64,000 nucleotides of DNA from Lactobacillus isalae. Its GTDB lineage: Bacteria; Bacillota; Bacilli; Lactobacillales; Lactobacillaceae. Under the pieces are notes generated by a model, which did not search any database, was not told the origin of the DNA, and was given only the letters and a program-made list of their open reading frames with translations. The stretch lies in assembly GCF_947539375.1 (NCBI RefSeq), contig NZ_OX443569.1, positions 806,001-870,000 of the forward strand. Reading direction: 5' to 3'. Made by a program: the position numbers and the translations under genes. Shown one piece after another: positions 42,991-52,446 of the stretch; within the stretch, counting starts at the first letter, position 1, and the number at the start of each line of letters is the position of its first letter.

Positions 42991-44802
42991 TTATTCCTTC
43001 ACATTCTTCAAAGCCTTGCGGACGGCTTCGCTGATTGCGCGACTTGTAGCAGATGCACCCGAAACTGCATCAACATCTGGAGTGTTTTCTTTAACAATCC
43101 GCTCTGGAATGACCTTTAGTGCTCGCTTGCCGACATCTTCACTTTCGTGATTTTGTACAACTTCGACATTCTTAATTCCATTGTCATAGGTGACACGCAC
43201 AACAAGCTTGCCACCAATACCGGCATTAGATTCGCCCAAATATTGGTCCTTATCAAGCTTAATATCCTTAATCTTATCACCGTCAGCTAATTCGTTAATT
43301 CCGTTATACTTATCAGAAGCTTCAGCCGTAACCTCATCAGTAACGTTAGCTGCTTGCTCGCCTGCAATCTTACCAAAAATCAAACACTCAGCTAAATTGC
43401 CACCGCCTTGATACTGATTTGCGTTAATACCACCTAATTCACCAGCACCATACAAGTGCGGAATTGGATTGTTATTAACATCCAGAATTTCAGCTTTAGT
43501 ATTTCTTTCTGGTCCTCCCTGCGTATTCAAAACATTGTAAGCCATCTTAATTGCATAAAATGGACCATCTTCCGCAAATTTAGCCATTGACTTAATATCT
43601 CGACCAAATTGATCATCATGACCATTTTCTACAAAACGGTTAAACATCTCGACTTGTTCCTTTAAGCCGTTTGCATCAACGCCTGTATTTTTAGCCAGCT
43701 CTTCAAGCGTATCAGCCTTAATCAATTTTTCATTGAACTTATCGTATGGAATCTGCCCTGCTTCAATAGTTTCATATTGTTTTTGATCAAAAATAATATA
43801 TGGCTTCTCATGACTGCGTGGAACGCGCCAAATACCGTGATCGAAAATGTGTCCATGACGGTTGGGACCAGCTTCGTTAAAGTAGCGCTTACCATCATCT
43901 ACTACCATCAATACGCTACCGTGGTTAAGCTCAGGCCAACTGAGAACTAGCTTAGATCTCTCGCCTTCTGGTGTATCAAATGATAAACCATGCAGTAAAC
44001 CAAGCGACTCGTAATTATACATATGCCACATCTTAGCGCCGACTTCTTGTGCCATCGAAATACCATCACCCTTGTTGTAAATAGTACCTAATGGAGCAAG
44101 TTTAGGAGCAGCCAAGTAGTTTTGTATCATTTCCTTGTTATTTTCAAAACCACCTGTTGTCAAAATAACGCCTCGTCTAGCTAGGACATTGATCTTTTGA
44201 CCTAATTTTTCAATCTGAACACCCTTGATCACTTTAGAAACTGGATCTTGAATCAAATGACTAGCACGTGCCTCATACCAGACATCAATCTTATCTTTAC
44301 GATCTAGAATTTTTTGTCTTAAAAGTTTCCAAAGAGCTGCATCAAACCATCCATTATGAACCAATGTATAGTCATGTGCTTCATGTCCCTTTAGTTCAGG
44401 ATATTCTTGAGCAACTTCAGCCCGATATTCCTTTGGTATCTTACTAAAGTCATTAATAAAACTAACTGGTTCAACGCCTAAGTACTTCTTCACATATTCC
44501 CGCATGTTACACATTCCGCGTACATAGGTTTCAACCATATCTTCTGGCAAATCCATCGGATGCGTTAAGCCATGATAGTATTCCTTTAACTTGTCATAAT
44601 CGGTCCCGGTGCCAAGAAGCTGGGCAGAATATCTAGTGTTGCCGCCTTCATGACCATAAGGAGCAACATCAACAATTAATACTTTAGCGCCATTATCAGC
44701 TGCGAATCTTGCAGCAGTTGCGCCTGCTCCACCAAAACCTAAAACAACAACATCATAATTTGCTTTCCAGTCAATAACTGGAGACTTTGTTTCTTGTTCC
44801 AT
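42991..44802 (-). CDS. Flavocytochrome-type FAD/FMN fumarate reductase-like oxidoreductase
   Basis: 603 residues. The FAD_binding_2 domain starts at DVVVLGFGGAGATAARFAADNGA (17-39), with GGFENNKEM, HGHIFDHG and YQGGGNLAECLIFGKIAGEQA. C-terminal FMN_bind domain (about 525-603) with the ApbE flavinylation motif D578-AVSGAS584, so FMN is probably attached covalently to Ser584. No signal peptide and no haem motif, so it is a cytosolic soluble reductase. Substrate could be fumarate, urocanate or a related enoate; not decidable. ApbE must be encoded elsewhere. Monocistronic, with a cre site at its promoter. Confidence 0.85.
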   Translation of the reverse strand: MEQETKSPVIDWKANYDVVVLGFGGAGATAARFAADNGAKVLIVDVAPYGHEGGNTRYSAQLLGTGTDYDKLKEYYHGLTHPMDLPEDMVETYVRGMCNMREYVKKYLGVEPVSFINDFSKIPKEYRAEVAQEYPELKGHEAHDYTLVHNGWFDAALWKLLRQKILDRKDKIDVWYEARASHLIQDPVSKVIKGVQIEKLGQKINVLARRGVILTTGGFENNKEMIQNYLAAPKLAPLGTIYNKGDGISMAQEVGAKMWHMYNYESLGLLHGLSFDTPEGERSKLVLSWPELNHGSVLMVVDDGKRYFNEAGPNRHGHIFDHGIWRVPRSHEKPYIIFDQKQYETIEAGQIPYDKFNEKLIKADTLEELAKNTGVDANGLKEQVEMFNRFVENGHDDQFGRDIKSMAKFAEDGPFYAIKMAYNVLNTQGGPERNTKAEILDVNNNPIPHLYGAGELGGINANQYQGGGNLAECLIFGKIAGEQAANVTDEVTAEASDKYNGINELADGDKIKDIKLDKDQYLGESNAGIGGKLVVRVTYDNGIKNVEVVQNHESEDVGKRALKVIPERIVKENTPDVDAVSGASATSRAISEAVRKALKNVKE

Positions 44803-44822
44803 ATCTATTCCCTCGTCTTTTT

Positions 44823-44836
44823 TGTTATCGCTTACA
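44823..44836 (-). promoter_or_regulatory. cre site upstream of fumarate-reductase-like gene
   Basis: On the minus strand TGTAAGCGATAACA fits the Bacillus-type consensus TGTAANCGNTNNCA at every fixed position. It lies a few bases downstream of a TATAAT -10 (about 44843), so CcpA would act as a roadblock. Confidence 0.7.
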
Positions 44837-44916
44837 AGAGATATTATAAGCGTTGACTAAAGCTTTGTATAATAATTAGCTATGTGGTGGGGATAGTTGT
44901 TATTTAATTTTAAAGT

Positions 44917-46011
44917 TTATGCAAAATAATTAAAATAAATAGTTTCTAAGTCAGGCGATAACTTATTTTCTCTAAATGCTTGTATCAATTTGCGTTTTAT
45001 TTTATTTTTAATATCTTTATCTGAAGAAACACTTTCTAAAATATTTACTTCGAACTCTTTCAACCAATCTAATTTAAACTTATTATAATCAAAATTCTGA
45101 TAATTAATTAACCACTGATCTGCGGGCATACCATATCTCTTAATAACATCTCTCACATCTTCACTCGTATATTTACTTCTTACAACACATAATCTTGTTA
45201 AGAGATGCGTTAGTTCTTTTACTTTATTTGGTAGCTCTTTTACTTGAAAAGCCGAAATGTCTTTACTTCGCAAATAATTGATTAAACTATTTTTTTCTTC
45301 TTCATCTAAGTTAATAATATTAAAGATAGCAAGATACAATTTTATCCTAAATCTATCATAGTCATTGTTAAATTCTTTATCTTTAAAATAATTTTTTATC
45401 TTATTTCTAACGCTATTATTAGCCAACCCATATAGAGAAATTATTACCTCATCCATATTATTTTTTATAGCTTGTTCAACTAGTGATATATTATCAAATG
45501 ACTCATCAATGCTTTTCAAATATTCATTTAAGAAGCAGACTCTCTCTGAAGCCATTGCTAACTTATTTTCAATAATCAAATTTATATTTTTGATTATTAT
45601 CTTTTTTAACTTCTCTTTGTTTTGATTATTAATTAATTTTTGGCGTTTAATATTGATCAAAAACTGGCTAATGAGATTTTGATTAGTGACAACATAAGAA
45701 TATATCAAGTAATCATCAATAGAATTCAATATTTTATTAGCTATTTTAGTATTTAGTTTTAAAAAACCACATAAAGCTATTAATTTCCAATATAAATCAT
45801 TTCTTATATCATCTTTATAATGTGCCTCGATGATATTAGGAATAATCGTTTCCAAATAATCGATGCCCTTTTCGTTTAGATTAATGAATGGTTGATATTG
45901 ATACTTATCAAATAGTTCATATATACTTTTGGAGCTTGAAGAATATTTAATTATTAAAAACAAATCAAAAGCATCTAAATATTCTTTTTTTATATTACCC
46001 GTATGAATCAA
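44917..46011 (-). CDS. C-terminal part of split DSR2-like protein
   Basis: 364 codons from TTG 46011, mainly helical, AT-rich coding. The frame is open further upstream through KKDTFDPL, joining the SIR2 ORF at the A7 tract (46027-46033). The C-terminus NFDYNKFKLDWLKEFEVNIL...IYFNYF resembles the end of Bacillus DSR2 as I remember it (NFDYKKFIPSWLKNYNDKLL...MNYF). In DSR2 the C-terminal region senses phage tail-tube protein. No ribosome site precedes the TTG, but the 4-base overlap with the SIR2 stop would allow coupled restart. It may be made separately, by frameshift, or not at all. Confidence 0.65.
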   Translation of the reverse strand: MIHTGNIKKEYLDAFDLFLIIKYSSSSKSIYELFDKYQYQPFINLNEKGIDYLETIIPNIIEAHYKDDIRNDLYWKLIALCGFLKLNTKIANKILNSIDDYLIYSYVVTNQNLISQFLINIKRQKLINNQNKEKLKKIIIKNINLIIENKLAMASERVCFLNEYLKSIDESFDNISLVEQAIKNNMDEVIISLYGLANNSVRNKIKNYFKDKEFNNDYDRFRIKLYLAIFNIINLDEEEKNSLINYLRSKDISAFQVKELPNKVKELTHLLTRLCVVRSKYTSEDVRDVIKRYGMPADQWLINYQNFDYNKFKLDWLKEFEVNILESVSSDKDIKNKIKRKLIQAFRENKLSPDLETIYFNYFA

Positions 46012-47810
46012 TGGATCAAAAGTATCTTTTTTTCATCGGACGCAACAGAAAAAAGTATAGTGCGAATATATAACTTATAATTATCATTAATATCTCTATA
46101 AAAATCTAATAATAAATAATTTTTGAAAACAAAATTATATAAGTCCATTGCTTTAATCTGAGCTTGTTCATAACCTGGAACACCGTGAAAAAACATATAA
46201 TCTGTATTTGCTTGTTTAGAAGTTTTTAGGTTTAAATCATACAAATCTTGAAATATAGTATAAGAATAGCTCCAATGATCAATATCCCTTATTAGGGGGA
46301 CTTTATCATTTATGTCATCCGATCTTTTACTAAAATCAATATTACTTATTTCATCTTTAATCGCTTCGACTGCAGATTCATCAATCTCAAATCTATAAGA
46401 TGCCTCGGTAATAATTTTACCAATCCATTTTCTATTAAATTGTGAAATATAATATAATCCATATGCTCTTTCTTCAAAAAGTGCAATACTTGCTTGTTTT
46501 AAATAATTATAGCTAGACAACAGATCTCCCAAGTAATAAGCTATGCTCGCCTGCTGAAGAAGAACTTCACCACTATTTTTTTCTAATAAAATCTCGTTTT
46601 TATTTTTTAATTTATTAAGCATTTGCCAGTTAAAAGTATATACATACTCCTCTATATTTGTCTTTTTCGTAGGAGTATCAAATGTTATCTTTTTATTATC
46701 ACTTTTTATTCCCTGAATCATGCTTTTATGTAGTATATTTAAAATTGTTTTTACTTTTTGTTTTTCAACAGGATCTTGTATATCATCTAAATCAGAACAA
46801 AGTATATTCAGCGTTTTTTGTATCTTCTTACTAGTATTACCTGCAGATAAAAACAAATTATCTGCAATATAAAAACCACGCTTCCATAGTGCACTATTCA
46901 AATGCTTTATAGTTATATAAGGAAAGTCATTATACTTTTTTAGTTCAATATATATATCATCAATTAAATTAGACGTTCTATCCGGTAACAGAAAATAATC
47001 TAAAACATTATTAAGATTCATACCGACATTCGTTGAATCAAAGCTATCTTGGTTTAATTCGCTTGCATATATAATTTTTACCCCAAGATTTTTATAATAT
47101 AACTCCTCATTTTCATCATATATACTATCAGCATTAACTAAATAAGAGAATCGCATATTCTCACCAACAATATTTTTTACCCAAGTAAAGATCTGTTTTA
47201 AATCTGGATCATTAAAAGAATAACCAATAAATAAAAGAACTTTAGATCCTATGATTGATTTAATATAATTCTCTATCAGCTTGAAATTTTTAGAATAATT
47301 TAAATAATCTTCTTCTTTCAATACAAAATTATCATGTGCGAAGTCCCCATGCATTTTTATTAATTCTTTATTGTATTTTCTATATGGTATATCTTTATCT
47401 TGCGAAATTATCTGTCTAATTTCTCCATATTCTTCTGATGCACGTTCAATAAGATTATCATAATTTGTAGTAATAATAGAGCGCGCATTAAATCTTAAAA
47501 TTTTACGATGAATATCAGATACTGGCAAATTTATACCATCTTTAAATATTTCTCTCATTAAAGTATTGTATGCTTGTTTTCCATGAGAATTATAGTAATA
47601 TTGTGGTATTTTTAGAAAATCACTGTTTTCAATTTTACCAAGTCCAAGTAAATTTCCTATGTGTTGCACTGCATCTTTCCAAATAGGCATACCAGAATTA
47701 ATTGATACACCTGCTCCAATAAACAAAACTAATTGATCAGCATCTTTGGCTTCTTGAATGATTCTTTTCGCTTCTCTGTATGAATTTGGAATATTTATTT
47801 CTCTATTCAT
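46008..47810 (-). CDS. SIR2-domain NADase, DSR2-like N-terminal part
   Basis: 600 codons. SIR2 domain with LVLFIGAGVS (GAGVS 32-36), TTNYDN (114-119), KMHGDF with catalytic His154, and FIGYSFNDPDL. After about 290 it becomes helical. Defence SIR2 proteins deplete NAD+ when a phage trigger is sensed. Sequence order and total length with the next ORF (964 residues) match DSR2 (about 1000). The frame ends nine codons after GAA AAA AAG, where A_AAA_AAG is a canonical -1 slippery heptamer. GAGGAG lies 11 bases before the ATG. It follows the GIY-YIG/DUF2075 gene by 25 bases. Confidence 0.8.
   Translation of the reverse strand: MNREINIPNSYREAKRIIQEAKDADQLVLFIGAGVSINSGMPIWKDAVQHIGNLLGLGKIENSDFLKIPQYYYNSHGKQAYNTLMREIFKDGINLPVSDIHRKILRFNARSIITTNYDNLIERASEEYGEIRQIISQDKDIPYRKYNKELIKMHGDFAHDNFVLKEEDYLNYSKNFKLIENYIKSIIGSKVLLFIGYSFNDPDLKQIFTWVKNIVGENMRFSYLVNADSIYDENEELYYKNLGVKIIYASELNQDSFDSTNVGMNLNNVLDYFLLPDRTSNLIDDIYIELKKYNDFPYITIKHLNSALWKRGFYIADNLFLSAGNTSKKIQKTLNILCSDLDDIQDPVEKQKVKTILNILHKSMIQGIKSDNKKITFDTPTKKTNIEEYVYTFNWQMLNKLKNKNEILLEKNSGEVLLQQASIAYYLGDLLSSYNYLKQASIALFEERAYGLYYISQFNRKWIGKIITEASYRFEIDESAVEAIKDEISNIDFSKRSDDINDKVPLIRDIDHWSYSYTIFQDLYDLNLKTSKQANTDYMFFHGVPGYEQAQIKAMDLYNFVFKNYLLLDFYRDINDNYKLYIRTILFSVASDEKKILLIH
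46026..46032 (-). other. A_AAA_AAG slippery heptamer at the SIR2 ORF junction
   Basis: Read on the minus strand in the SIR2 frame, the codons are GAA AAA AAG. A -1 shift places the ribosome on GAT ACT TTT GAT, which is the frame of the next ORF, giving a continuous 964-residue product. Equally, gain of one A in the A7 run would restore one frame. No strong stem or internal Shine-Dalgarno was seen nearby. Confidence 0.6.
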
Positions 47811-47835
47811 ATGATTTAATGCTCCTCTTTCATCC

Positions 47836-49659
47836 CTAATTGTTTTTCGCTTTCTCTAACGCCTTTTGCAGCTCTGGATCAACAGCATGAATATACAAAC
47901 CATGCACACCACGTGTCATTAAAACATTGAATTCATTTTTTAATAACATATCAGCATAACTCTTAGTTGAATCACGTTTCTGCGTCGCTTTACTGTTAGA
48001 ACTTTCTGCTGGATCATGGATAATTCGACCATTACGATATTTTACAGAGGGACCAAGTTCAACACCAACATAGTTCAAATCAAAACCTTGTACTGTGTAG
48101 GTTGATCCTATTTCCGCAATAGTATAGTCTTTTTCTGCCCATGATTGATTACTATATTTTACGGTTCTATGTGCTCTATGCTTGCTTTCATATTTATCTC
48201 GTTTATTAATCTCATAGTTCCATGGCATATGCCAATCGCCCTCAGATACTTCCCAATATTTTTGATTTTTTGGCGGTTGTGTTTTTCCTCCTGAATATTC
48301 CCAATCAAAAGTTGCAACCATTCTGCTAATTCCATTTTTTTGATCTTTGTTCTTTTCCTCAATGGCCTTTTGCATTTCCTCAGGAGTCTTAAAAACTTTG
48401 ATTTGATATTTACTATCTTGAGGTATTTTATTAATGATTCCATTATCAATAAGATTACGAAGCCAATCTATTGTAGCTTGAGAAGCGTCAATTCTCATTT
48501 GATTTTTCAAATAAATAATATTTTCCTTACCTGCTTTTCGTTCCAAATCAGCAAATTTTTCATCTTCTAAAACAGAAGCTATTGACAAAACTTGCGCAGG
48601 ATCATAAACGGCCATAACTACTTTTGCTCGTTTTAAAATATCTTCTAACATATTCTTTCCGTACTTAGCATATGCTTGATTTCTTTGTGTCAGTAGTAAA
48701 TGCGCTTCATCAATCAAAGCTATATCAATTTTTTTCGATGGCTTAACCTTATTTATAAATGTAATTGGCTTAGCCACCAGTACTTGTTCATCTTTATCAA
48801 AGAGTTTCTGTGATATTTTTTCATATACCTTAAGTTGTTCATTTTGGTTAACAATCATTGCTACTGATAATCTTTCAGCTTTTTTACCTCCTCTTTGCTC
48901 TTTTGCAGAAATTTGATCTTCATGTACCAAATCATAAAAAATATTGCTCATTAACACAGTTTTACCTGATCCGGCATTTCCCTCAACTAAAATCAATTGA
49001 CCTTCAGGCAGATTTTTATTTTTTTGAACAAATAAAGTTTCATTGATTTTATCTATAACCTTAGATTTTGCTAACAATTGTTCATTCGTTAATTTATTAA
49101 ATGGTGAAGCTTTAAATATAGCTGAAGATTCAATAATTTTACGTGCAGGAAATAAATCGTCATTTTGGTTACCTAGTTTTTTCCAAATCAGATTAAATAA
49201 ACTATTAAATTCATCTGAATCATAGTATCTATTTTGCTCATTATGACGTCTATTATTTAAACGATGTACAGCTGGCACACTACTTAGATACTGCATCAAT
49301 CTATTTTCTATGTCTAAAGTCATAGATTTATTAAAATGCTCGTGACCAATTACAAACATATTTGCATTTTTTGAATTTTTGAAGTTAAAAAAATCATCAC
49401 GTTTAGCTGGATCTGCATCTAAATGCTGTAATGTACGTCTTTGAATATCATTCGTTTCACCAACATAAACTGTGTATTGTGACCTTTTACTATTTATCGG
49501 ATCATTAATGACATAAACAGTCGGGAACTCAGTTAATAAAACTCTTTTTGTTTCATCCGTAGCATATTCTTCACTAATCTGTGTATTTAATTGACTAGCT
49601 GTTTGAACGTTATATTTAGTTTTATATATTACCGGTGATTTTAGATTTCTTTTTGTCAA
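47836..49659 (-). CDS. GIY-YIG nuclease fused to DUF2075 helicase
   Basis: 607 residues. Residues 45-130 form a GIY-YIG nuclease: TVYV (47-50), YTVYVGETNDIQRR (62-75, Arg74) and Glu118 in DIENRLMQYL, all catalytic positions present. Residues 185-600 form a DUF2075 SF1-type motor: Walker A EGNAGSGKT (226-234), IALIDEAHLL (DEAH 317-320), AVYDPAQ, STYTVQGFDLNYVGVELGP and NVLMTRGVHGLYIHAVD. This suggests a DNA-cutting translocase, often found in defence islands. TTG start with only GAGAG ahead, so initiation is uncertain. It lies 25 bases before the SIR2 gene in the same direction, so it is likely co-transcribed. Confidence 0.8.
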   Translation of the reverse strand: MTKRNLKSPVIYKTKYNVQTASQLNTQISEEYATDETKRVLLTEFPTVYVINDPINSKRSQYTVYVGETNDIQRRTLQHLDADPAKRDDFFNFKNSKNANMFVIGHEHFNKSMTLDIENRLMQYLSSVPAVHRLNNRRHNEQNRYYDSDEFNSLFNLIWKKLGNQNDDLFPARKIIESSAIFKASPFNKLTNEQLLAKSKVIDKINETLFVQKNKNLPEGQLILVEGNAGSGKTVLMSNIFYDLVHEDQISAKEQRGGKKAERLSVAMIVNQNEQLKVYEKISQKLFDKDEQVLVAKPITFINKVKPSKKIDIALIDEAHLLLTQRNQAYAKYGKNMLEDILKRAKVVMAVYDPAQVLSIASVLEDEKFADLERKAGKENIIYLKNQMRIDASQATIDWLRNLIDNGIINKIPQDSKYQIKVFKTPEEMQKAIEEKNKDQKNGISRMVATFDWEYSGGKTQPPKNQKYWEVSEGDWHMPWNYEINKRDKYESKHRAHRTVKYSNQSWAEKDYTIAEIGSTYTVQGFDLNYVGVELGPSVKYRNGRIIHDPAESSNSKATQKRDSTKSYADMLLKNEFNVLMTRGVHGLYIHAVDPELQKALEKAKNN

Positions 49660-49833
49660 ACTAATGTACTCTCTTTCTACTCATTAAATTAAAATATATC
49701 ACAGTATTCATTAAACAAAAAAGCCCATTTTCAATTTATAGAACTCATTTTATACAACTTCACATAATTAAAAATATGAATTGCACTAAAGCCTAACCTT
49801 CCCTAAAATATATTCCCGTGTTCGCTTCCTTTA

Positions 49834-49847
49834 AGAACATACGTTCG
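49834..49847 (+). promoter_or_regulatory. LexA-like SOS box before DUF3800 gene
   Basis: AGAACATACGTTCG resembles the Gram-positive LexA box CGAACRNRYGTTYC: both GAAC and GTTC half-sites are intact with the 4-base gap, and the first and last positions differ. It sits 1 base before a TATAAT -10 (49849-49854), the standard repressing position. Confidence 0.65.
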
Positions 49848-49848
49848 A

Positions 49849-49854
49849 TATAAT
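49849..49854 (+). promoter_or_regulatory. -10 of the DUF3800 gene
   Basis: TATAAT, 30 bases before the ATG at 49884. No good -35 at 17 bases; LexA-controlled promoters often have weak -35 elements. Confidence 0.6.
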
Positions 49855-49883
49855 GCTCATATAAATTACTTGTAGGTGAAATC

Positions 49884-51029
49884 ATGATTCTGAAAAAACT
49901 TTTTCAACCACGACGGCATGCTAAAGAATTCCATATTTTTATTGATGAAAGCATCTCGTTTCAATCTCACTCAAATAATACAACTGAACAGTTTTATACC
50001 GGTTTTTTAGTCATTCCAACTTTTCAGCTCAGAGAGCTATATGATAGGTATTTTCAAAAAATCTATCGCTCACATCGTAAAAGAGAGAAAAAGAGTGTAA
50101 ATGTTTCAGACACGATGAATCGGTTAGCTTTAGATATTGTTAACCCCTTTCTAACTAGCGCTTATATTTATCAACGCCCTACTTACCATAAGCAGGATAC
50201 TTCACTTGATAAAGCTATTGTGCAGCAAGTGTTAATGCTTCAATCTTACATTTACCCAATTAAAAAAATTATTGCAGATCTACGCCACCACAATCCTACT
50301 GTTGACTTAAAATTACATATTTATCTTGATCAAACTAATTTGAATTCTCAGCTTGAAAGTGAATATTTTAGCTGTAAGTTACTTTCCCAGATTATCAAAA
50401 GTTTAGGCGAAGAAAACCATATGCTTTTCAGCTATCAAACGTGCGACAGTAAGAAAGAGTTAGGTATTCAAATGGCTGATATGCTCGTTGGGGTCTATCG
50501 CAAGCAAGAAAAACATGGCGTAAATGATGAGAATACCACTATCATTCCTTTTAAAGTTACATCAATGATTGATACTCTAGATTTTCAAGATCAAGACACC
50601 TTTTTGAAATTATATGTTTTAGTAAGTCTTACAATGAAAAGTCCTACTAAAAAAGATTTAACAGCTTTTAAAAAAGTACTTAAGAATAAGCTAGACTTGG
50701 ATTCTCACCAACATCAAAAAACAAATAACTTTAATACTATAAGAATGAAATTAACTAAGGCAAAAACTAAAACGGATGAAGAAAAATTTAACCGCAAATT
50801 TGTCAAAATTTTAATCTCATTGAATAAATTCCTACTTAAAATTTATGGGCAAGAAGTGCCAAGTGCGTACATTAACAACTTAAGTCGAAAATATAATCAT
50901 AAAAGCTGTAATCGTTCAATCACTAATATGCAACGAAATATAAACAAAGTACAATTAAGTAAACTTAAGATTTTTATACTTAAATTAGGTGTTAGAAGAT
51001 TTAACAAACAACTGGATAAATTATTATAA
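49884..51029 (+). CDS. DUF3800 family protein, possible SOS-induced nuclease
   Basis: 381 residues. DUF3800 core: FHIFIDES with Asp21-Glu22, IYLDQTN with Asp149, and GIQMADMLVGV with Asp199, an acidic set like that of RNase H-fold nucleases. The last 150 residues are Lys-rich and helical, a probable nucleic-acid-binding extension. ATG behind AGGTGA. It is divergent from the GIY-YIG/SIR2 operon and appears to be under LexA control. The family is frequent in defence islands, but its function is not established. Confidence 0.75.
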   Translation: MILKKLFQPRRHAKEFHIFIDESISFQSHSNNTTEQFYTGFLVIPTFQLRELYDRYFQKIYRSHRKREKKSVNVSDTMNRLALDIVNPFLTSAYIYQRPTYHKQDTSLDKAIVQQVLMLQSYIYPIKKIIADLRHHNPTVDLKLHIYLDQTNLNSQLESEYFSCKLLSQIIKSLGEENHMLFSYQTCDSKKELGIQMADMLVGVYRKQEKHGVNDENTTIIPFKVTSMIDTLDFQDQDTFLKLYVLVSLTMKSPTKKDLTAFKKVLKNKLDLDSHQHQKTNNFNTIRMKLTKAKTKTDEEKFNRKFVKILISLNKFLLKIYGQEVPSAYINNLSRKYNHKSCNRSITNMQRNINKVQLSKLKIFILKLGVRRFNKQLDKLL

Positions 51030-51031
51030 AT

Positions 51032-51069
51032 AAAATATCCCTCAAATTATCTTCGAGGGATATTTTTTA
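51032..51069. terminator. Terminator after DUF3800 gene
   Basis: AAAATATCCCTC pairs with GAGGGATATTTT, six T following on the plus strand, 3 bases after the stop codon. Confidence 0.85.
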
Positions 51070-51105
51070 ATATCAAAGTCTATTACTTTCTAAACAGTTG
51101 CTATA

Positions 51106-52365
51106 CTACTCTTCACTATTCAATTCATCTAGCATATCTTGCATATCAATATCGTCAGGTTGAACTTGCAAATACTTCTTAATTAATTCCTTAGTCGTTG
51201 GAATTTCACGCAATTCATAGAACAAGCTAATCATTTGTCTCAAGAAGCTTGCATTTTGTTGAAAGGCAGGATAAGCAAGTAAGAATTCACTCTTAGCCTT
51301 ATCATAGTCTTCAAGTCTTTGATATGAGATAGCCATATTCCAGTGAGCTTGTGGTTCAAGCTCTTCATCATCAAGATCCTTAAATAAGGCAATATTAGCC
51401 TCATCTTGGTGCTGGTGAAGATACAAGTTAGATAGTTGCAAGCGCAAGTCACTATTGTCTGGAGCGATTTCTAGGCCCTTCTTAAGCAAGCGTTCTGCTT
51501 CATCCAGTTGATTTAAATTAGCAGCTGCTTTAGCACCCAAACTATACAAGACTTCATCTAGTTCATTATAAGAAAGACCTGTCTGAGCCGTTCTCAATAC
51601 TTCTTCATTATTATCTTCTGCGACATAAGCTTGAGCAAGCAATGGATATGCATTTACATAGTCCGGTTGAGTTTCGATCACTTGATCTAAGTACTTAATT
51701 GCGGCTTTGTTGTCGCCAGCAGATAACATAATTAGACCTGCTTCATACAAAGCATCAATACTCAAGATATCATTTTCATGACTCTTAATTTCGTTTGCTG
51801 CTTCTTCGTACTCACCTAACTTAGCAAGACAAGCGGCGATTCTTTGGCTTAAAACTACCTCACCAAAGGTCTTGTTTTCTTTTGCAAGCTCACGATACAA
51901 GCCTAATGCTTCACCATAGTCGCCACTTAAATAATCAAGTTCAGCTAAGCCAAAGTTAATTGCATCTTCTTCAGGAGCCAATTTATGAGCTTCCAAGAGC
52001 TTTTGACGAGCTGTTTCGATCAGGCCATTACTTTGGTAATAATCAGCCAAATCAAGCAAACTTTCGACATAAGCATCACTTTCTGGCTTTACATCATATA
52101 AAAGCTGCAAGCCATCGTCTTCATCGCCATCATTTAACAAAATCTCAGCTAAGTATACCTTAAACAAATCTTCTCTTGGAAATTGTGCAATCAAATAACG
52201 ATAAACTTCCTTAGAAAGATCAGTAAAACCAAGATCAGTTAAATTTTCAGCTAACGAGGCTAAAACTTCTGGATCATCATTATCAAGTGCTTTTTTAAGA
52301 AGAATTCGATTATCAGAAAAATCGTGATTTTGAATTGCATCTAATAGTTGTTCAGAATAAGTCAT
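51106..52365 (-). CDS. Tetratricopeptide-repeat protein
   Basis: 419 residues from the ATG at 52365 (GAGTGAAAAA before it). About ten helical-pair repeats of TPR type, for example AINFGLAELDYLSGDYGEALGLYRELA, AIKYLDQVIETQPDYVNAYPLLAQAYV, AERLLKKGLEIAPDNSDLRLQLSNLYL and AHWNMAISYQRLEDYDKAKSEFLLAYP. Acidic and soluble, without signal peptide: a scaffold for protein contacts, with unknown partners. It follows hup and its terminator, the usual gene order in lactobacilli. Confidence 0.88.
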   Translation of the reverse strand: MTYSEQLLDAIQNHDFSDNRILLKKALDNDDPEVLASLAENLTDLGFTDLSKEVYRYLIAQFPREDLFKVYLAEILLNDGDEDDGLQLLYDVKPESDAYVESLLDLADYYQSNGLIETARQKLLEAHKLAPEEDAINFGLAELDYLSGDYGEALGLYRELAKENKTFGEVVLSQRIAACLAKLGEYEEAANEIKSHENDILSIDALYEAGLIMLSAGDNKAAIKYLDQVIETQPDYVNAYPLLAQAYVAEDNNEEVLRTAQTGLSYNELDEVLYSLGAKAAANLNQLDEAERLLKKGLEIAPDNSDLRLQLSNLYLHQHQDEANIALFKDLDDEELEPQAHWNMAISYQRLEDYDKAKSEFLLAYPAFQQNASFLRQMISLFYELREIPTTKELIKKYLQVQPDDIDMQDMLDELNSEE

Positions 52366-52406
52366 TTTTTCACTCTTTTCGTTTGTGCTAACACAATAAT
52401 TGTACA

Positions 52407-52446
52407 CAAAAAACGTGCCAAGCTATACAACTTAGCACGTTTTTAT
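52407..52446 (-). terminator. Terminator after hup
   Basis: AAAAACGTGC-AAG pairs with CTT-GCACGTTTTT around an 8-base loop, T run on the minus strand. Confidence 0.8.

Follow-up and report, generated by a model that had tools for sequence, protein, structure and literature searches.

DSR2 of Bacillus subtilis (PDB 8k98, WP_029317421, 1005 amino acids (aa)) is a SIR2-domain protein of phage defence (passages of PMC10981675, PMC11087589, PMC11263360, PMC11290490 and PMC10973363). In the scheme published for Bacillus, its SIR2 NADase is inactive until the middle (MID) and C-terminal (CTD) regions bind a phage protein; binding leads to destruction of NAD+, and the infection is aborted. The activator of DSR2 is phage tail tube protein, and its inhibitor is DSAD1. 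A member of this family is encoded in a 64,000-nucleotide stretch of Lactobacillus isalae (NCBI RefSeq assembly GCF_947539375.1, contig NZ_OX443569.1, positions 806,001 to 870,000), referred to here as the window, whose numbering is used below. In its whole form the protein would be expected to act as DSR2 does. Here, the gene is divided between two open reading frames (ORFs) that meet at a run of seven adenines. It was probably a single ORF of ~960–980 codons until a recent change in the length of the A tract cost it the frame, leaving the defence off or nearly off.

The resemblance to DSR2 lies in the N/Y/D/H pocket of the N-terminal SIR2 domain, in the MID and CTD regions (by profile), in the collinear order of these parts and in length (964 residues when fused vs 1005). 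The differences are that the coding frame is broken, that only profile comparison recognises the C-terminal part, and that a GIY-YIG/SLFN-g3 helicase gene precedes the locus, whereas DSR2 is described as a single-protein system (a passage of PMC11290490). ThsA of Thoeris is the best PADLOC match (E=1.2e-39) and shares the common SIR2 NADase domain, but the match is limited to ORF1 residues 22–228, and ThsA itself has a SLOG-like domain and ~480 aa. The SIR2-HerA (Nezha) system also places a SIR2 protein beside a helicase gene (in part of PMC11559045); the helicase here is, however, SLFN-g3 plus GIY-YIG rather than HerA, and elsewhere half of the loci read have it next to a MazG-like gene. The IS3-type -1 frameshift signals likewise carry A_AAA_AAG in the overlap of two ORFs (sections of PMC4066793), but the present site has no hairpin, no Shine-Dalgarno (SD)-like stimulator and no conservation.

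ORF1 (46008..47810, minus strand) encodes 600 aa from an ATG start and comprises the SIR2 NADase domain (SIR2_2, E=5.9e-24) and a MID-like connector; an SD-like GAGGAG lies 11 nucleotides (nt) 5' of the ATG (47822..47827, minus strand, by eye). ORF2 (44917..46011, minus strand) encodes 364 aa from a TTG start and is assigned as a C-terminal sensor-like region from the homologue alignment and the CTD profile match. The two overlap by 4 bases (TTGA, stop/start), and a -1 shift at the junction yields a fused product of 964 residues. This arrangement, described in the initial annotation as a 600-codon SIR2 ORF and a 364-codon ORF joined at a slippery heptamer, is reproduced in full. The genome holds a single copy of the gene.

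Family membership and homologous loci

Several lines of comparison place the gene in the DSR2 family. A PDB sequence search with its intact same-genus homologue gives DSR2 as the best match (E=6e-42, query residues 16–341). In the SIR2 pocket, ORF1 residues N116, Y117, D118 and H154 align with DSR2 N133, Y134, D135 and H171, whose function is treated in passages of PMC10981675 and PMC11263360. By alignment column, the codon of Asn116 lies at 47463..47465 (minus strand), followed by those of Tyr117 and Asp118, and that of His154 at 47349..47351 (minus strand). Two residues at the tetramer contacts of DSR2, Y71 and D188, are replaced in ORF1 (by G56 and E167). A profile of this gene and the same-genus homologue was compared by hhalign with one of DSR2-like proteins (L067, L068, L069 and L183). 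The MID regions match with a probability of 93.4% (E=2.5e-7, a value that stands without a shuffled control) and the CTD regions with one of 90.6% (E=1.3e-6, 327 columns), against at most 0.5% for eight column-shuffled CTD controls and 0.4% for the C-terminus of another SIR2 protein. The earlier assignment as DSR2-like is thus upheld by the PDB match together with the MID and CTD profile matches.

The relationship is a distant one in other comparisons. A second homologue group (L062, L063, L065 and L184) gives a CTD probability of only 3.4%; with plain HMMER the CTD is found marginally by one profile (E=0.013) and not by the other; and ORF1 shows 26% identity to a DSR2-like Priestia protein over residues 18–460. 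The PADLOC and NCBIfam Dsr2 models match only the SIR2 part of the gene, which is not evidence against membership because the same models also miss the near-identical DSR2 of G1290. A single polypeptide of ~1000 aa, as in DSR2, is found in 12 of 14 full-length homologous loci and not at this one, where the gene is split. The sequence comparisons support its placement as a divergent, frame-broken member of the DSR2 family rather than an intact DSR2.

The behaviour of the family models is an observation in its own right. At E 1e-5, PDLC02184 and NF041819 (1222 and 1215 positions) miss a 1005-aa protein that is almost identical to the DSR2 solved by cryo-EM (L183 1432-4449, genome G1290). Two lineages therefore seem to share the name Dsr2, and the one with a solved structure would be missed wherever annotation relies on these PADLOC and NCBIfam models. 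Over residues 1 to 1005 the G1290 protein aligns with the solved DSR2, and the printed part of this alignment is gapless, so that residue positions can be transferred.

The homologue that defines the break most closely is a 979-aa protein from the same genus (G044; L002), encoded by one ORF and 44% identical. ORF1 residues 7–595 align with its residues 7–600 (41% identity) and ORF2 residues 2–364 with its residues 603–978 (28% identity); it follows ORF1 through the two lysines at the tract and ORF2 from three residues later. Since both ORFs are collinear with this one protein, they are two parts of one ancestral protein, interrupted at the A tract to within ~2 residues. Break and A tract therefore truly coincide on this alignment.

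Fourteen full-length loci were found; the genome sets compared hold one genome per species and may leave out near records. Twelve are single ORFs of 915–1005 aa (G044, G748, G740, G498, G157, G747, G753, G499, G779, G1290, G1382 and a Priestia plasmid, whose homologue has 983 aa by its coding sequence); the others are the present locus and a copy in Eubacterium plexicaudatum (L005 5965-8831). The set leaves out matches to the SIR2 part or less (frames of 53 to ~600 aa, and proteins of 1063, 1132, 1215, 1216 and 1239 aa) and the plasmid matches of one search, none of which covers 80% of ORF1. The Eubacterium copy contains several breaks, yet its frame is continuous at this site. Genes neighbouring that copy look broken too, which points to error-prone assembly on that contig. 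In all, the frame is continuous at the site in 13 of 13 other full-length loci, the site having been read in codons for G044 (GAT AAA AAG GAT, in frame, without the heptamer) and Eubacterium plexicaudatum (GCT GCG GAT ACT, no A tract) and as protein for the rest. The search for intact homologues of ~960 residues proposed in the initial annotation was thus productive, and its opposite case, homologues that are normally two separate proteins, is not seen among the full-length loci found.

Close relatives are few. Only two homologues exceed 40% identity (G044 at 44% and Eubacterium plexicaudatum at 47% in its best segment), and the latter was the sole match in the genome contig scan. The collections searched yielded no further strain of this species; with ORF2 as query, only ORF2 itself matched in 397 genomes of the family. 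A DNA-level search of plasmids and phages gave no match, nor did a phage protein search with a DSR2-like protein, and viral contig scans with three proteins showed no relative.

The A tract at the frame break

At the junction, the ORF1 frame reads GAT GAA AAA AAG ATA. The A7 tract occupies 46027..46033 (minus strand) and contains A_AAA_AAG in the zero frame (46026..46032, minus strand), as first noted. A joining -1 shift has room only in the 25 nt between the TGA of the ORF2 frame (46033..46035, minus strand), its upstream bound, and the ORF1 stop; the tract opens this stretch, the final base of the TGA being its first A. A heptamer at this position is less telling than it appears. An A run that shortens in this register yields a zero-frame A_AAA_AAG automatically, so the heptamer is not independent evidence and cannot explain the break; -1 slippage on a heptamer from such a shortened run points back to the old frame. 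An AT-rich defence gene can in this way lose its frame and gain a textbook slippery heptamer in one stroke, and slippery motifs at A-tract breaks are not to be read as recoding unless conservation or stimulators accompany them.

The motif also occurs elsewhere in the gene and in the genome. In-frame X_XXY_YYZ sites (Y = A/T) number 13 in ORF1, two of them A_AAA_AAG, and 8 in ORF2, one of them A_AAA_AAG, and 157 intact genes of the same genome contain 17 in-frame A_AAA_AAG. Both the motif and its parent tracts are under-used relative to synonymous shuffling: 17 in-frame A_AAA_AAG vs 31.4 (sd 4.1) expected, and 44 A runs of at least 7 vs 84 expected (157 intact ORFs, 706001-1030000 in the genome's own numbering).

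Signals that would stimulate frameshifting are not seen. Downstream of the break, segments of 65 and 85 nt are less stable than their shuffles (z +2.04 and +1.15), one of 125 nt is as stable as its shuffles (z 0.01), and the hairpin score at the break is equalled or bettered by 88 of 120 random positions in the gene, all judged by folding without pseudoknots. The remark that no clear stimulatory stem is present agrees with these comparisons. By eye, no SD-like stimulator lies in the 25 nt upstream of the tract. The stretches read contain two tRNA-Lys(CUU) and two tRNA-Lys(UUU) genes among 77 tRNA genes; because tRNA-Lys(CUU) is present, slippage on AAG should be lowered.

The break falls near the join between connector and sensor. 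ORF1 K595 lies in the column of DSR2 residue 626, or up to ~630 in our own reading of the CTD profile alignment, and the MID/CTD boundary of DSR2 has been placed at 627 (a passage of PMC11290490). The helical region has been cut differently elsewhere, as a HEAT domain at 548–858 (part of PMC11263360) or as H3 at 551–860 (part of PMC10973363). The published schemes differ, so whether the break meets a domain boundary depends on which of them is chosen. Such a coincidence is also not very surprising, given that the gene has four A7 tracts, the one at the break included, and that two of the four lie close to the MID/CTD boundary.

Weighing the explanations

The account we favour begins with an ancestral gene of one ORF. 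A change in A-tract length near the junction of connector and C-terminal sensor would have broken the frame, so that translation in this genome would end at 46008 and give SIR2 plus connector without the sensor; slippage on the tract may still supply a very small amount of full-length protein. Such a product would probably be off: by position, the greater part of H3 and the whole of H4 are missing from ORF1. In passages of PMC10973363, the SIR2 domain alone shows no NAD+ cleavage even when the activator is there, and DSR2 without its last subdomain (H4) is substantially impaired in cleavage. Beyond the frame break, neither frame contains a nonsense codon in 958 codons, so the break is recent if the gene has been unselected since; on that condition, at most ~77 substitutions (2.7%) have accumulated at the 5% level. 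The SIR2 gene at the same chromosomal site in a sibling (G023) has decayed as well, a supporting parallel. The A8-to-A7 slip suggested in the initial annotation thus fits in its core, a change of tract length. Its reversibility, that is, phase variation in which tract length switches the defence on or off between strains or cells, is improbable. Because phase variation is one form of the same change, its probability overlaps with that of the favoured account, and all support for a tract-length change supports it; a switch could also benefit a costly abortive-infection gene. Only one allele has been seen, however, and A7 is short for slipped-strand switching.

The main competitor is an assembly or sequencing error, in which case the living strain would carry the gene unbroken in one ORF and its DSR2-type system would work; we regard this as possible though unlikely. 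Homopolymers commonly attract sequencing and assembly errors. The Eubacterium plexicaudatum copy, broken on a contig with other broken-looking genes, is an example that counts for this view. A survey of prokaryotic genomes puts frame breaks seen in one genome only down to indel mutation or sequencing error, and expects BLASTP-confirmed singletons to be mainly sequencing errors (a section of PMC3711429). Against an error stands the quality of the surrounding assembly. In the 324 kb around the window, none of 163 orthologues from G033 and none of 76 from G014 is frameshifted in this genome (4 and 2 were flagged for an internal stop, and 3 and 2 matched in part, all left unsorted), and conversely one gene that is whole here has a frameshift in G014. 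Runs of at least 7 in the 157 intact genes number 54, of which 44 are of A and 10 of T. By the rule of three (95%), the error rate is at most ~1.8% per gene and 5.6% per tract. With no frameshifted orthologue and many intact long A/T runs, the assembly shows no general tendency to such errors. We infer a real mutation, with assembly error second. Of slippage, mutation and assembly error, all left open at the outset, mutation has gained and assembly error has become less likely.

Accounts in which the split itself works require more of the site. If -1 ribosomal frameshifting were programmed here, or slippage on the A tract regulated, the dose of a toxic full-length NADase would be set at translation. 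The zero-frame A_AAA_AAG within a 25-nt overlap, the exact joining of two homologous regions by the shift and the position of the break beside the effector/sensor boundary (a passage of PMC11290490) speak for it. The criterion used for programmed sites is, however, conservation within a cluster (a passage of PMC3711429), and the heptamer is absent from both G044 and Eubacterium plexicaudatum, while the homologues are single ORFs continuous at the site. No downstream structure or SD-like stimulator accompanies it, the tRNA-Lys(CUU) genes are expected to lower slippage, and the same motif stands in frame in the intact genes counted above. Shifty heptamers without stimulators stay within 10x of the 0.055% background in E. 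coli (a section of PMC4066793). The proposal that frameshifting limits the NADase dose finds no support in these data and is most unlikely. An open-access literature search on programmed ribosomal frameshifting in phage defence found nothing related, and another on phase variation or homopolymeric frameshifts in SIR2 phage defence gave a single hit. A two-polypeptide DSR2, with ORF1 and ORF2 made separately through translational coupling at TTGA and acting together, is the least probable of all. It would account for the 4-base stop/start overlap, the break beside the MID/CTD boundary and the absence of further nonsense codons in either frame; however, no SD-like site is seen by eye in the 30 nt upstream of the TTG, and 0 of 13 other full-length loci are split here. 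Complementation between the two pieces is conceivable. Very doubtful, if marginally less so than programmed frameshifting by itself, is a combined form: an NADase naturally split at the effector/sensor boundary, made mostly as SIR2-MID with a coupled-start sensor and a rare -1 fusion, so that recoding would set the assembly of the enzyme. If the split were functional, this would be a DSR2 under translational control. We know of no other such DSR2.

Some points weigh against a simple loss of frame and function. Point mutations in H2 activate DSR2 without a trigger (part of PMC10973363), so a truncated product need not be off, and the DSR2 constructs in the passages of that paper did not include a SIR2-MID truncation. 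The break lies within ~1–4 residues of one published MID/CTD boundary, which is also expected of a functional split. A_AAA_AAG is among the most slippery heptamers known in E. coli when stimulators are present (a section of PMC4066793). As only two homologues exceed 40% identity, conservation is a weak argument against recoding specific to this lineage. With one strain to go by, a single assembly error at the tract keeps some probability. On balance, the initial annotation is partly supported: its observation is correct and well placed, and its content is most likely ordinary, a DSR2-family defence gene that has recently gone out of frame.

The helicase gene and the defence island

The gene directly before ORF1, 25 nt upstream, encodes a 607-aa GIY-YIG plus SLFN-g3 helicase (47836..49659, minus strand; PF09848 E=2.7e-85, PF01541 E=7.6e-6). 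Upstream of it lies a divergent gene for a DUF3800 protein (49884-51029, PF12686 E=7.1e-8), present in the G033 and G022 stretches and not in the other five sibling stretches. Both belong to a variable defence island (42991-52407), bounded by a flavoprotein gene (42991-44802) and a TPR-like gene (51106-52407), both named by eye. The seven sibling genomes compared (L082-L088) carry different gene sets at this site, with type I restriction genes, named from protein starts, among them. Within it, the SIR2 cassette extends over 44912..47848: DNA similarity to sibling G033 ends at 44911 and restarts at 47849.

The helicase is kept at this site in G033 (95%), G069 (83%) and G023 (81%), and what stands behind it varies. 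In G033 this is a gene for a 198-aa protein; in G069, an unbroken gene for a 1099-aa protein whose SIR2 domain is a different one (PF13289, E=5.8e-13) and which is similar to ORF1 in that domain only; in G023, a decayed copy of the G069 gene with an 11-base deletion and three in-frame stops. The sibling helicase loci are L083 11516-13987, L088 9061-14200 and L085 9946-15065. A helicase/NADase module, with an exchangeable effector behind one kept helicase, is possible. Two different SIR2 genes in one slot suggest a working link between the helicase and NADases, although only two events are involved. The arrangement is a testable lead, and the open-access literature yielded nothing on this helicase family in such a setting.

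Two stricter forms of the link were rejected. The helicase is not an obligate partner of this SIR2 family, for tblastn (E 1e-5) found nothing like it near L061-L069, L183, L184 and L005, which make up 12 of the 13 other full-length loci; the flanks read were of unequal length, those of L183 and L184 being only ~1.4–1.5 kb. The remaining locus, on the Priestia plasmid, has no such helicase among its annotated neighbours. Nor is SIR2 the ordinary partner of the helicase. Behind the helicase at 44 loci stand MazG-like genes in 22, SIR2 in 2 (this locus and G023; G069 is not among the 44) and other genes in 20. These loci are part of all matches: the best 30, and 14 from the ~15 that follow, where one was skipped because it lay at a contig end; classes were called by self-written peptide motifs, with one MazG-like member checked against Pfam. 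The MazG-like nucleotide pyrophosphohydrolase gene lies directly behind the helicase and often overlaps it (L139-L177, e.g. L142 3252-3599). Beside the intact G044 homologue stands a 468-aa gene (L061 9914-11320), which we take to be similar to AbiH-type abortive infection proteins.

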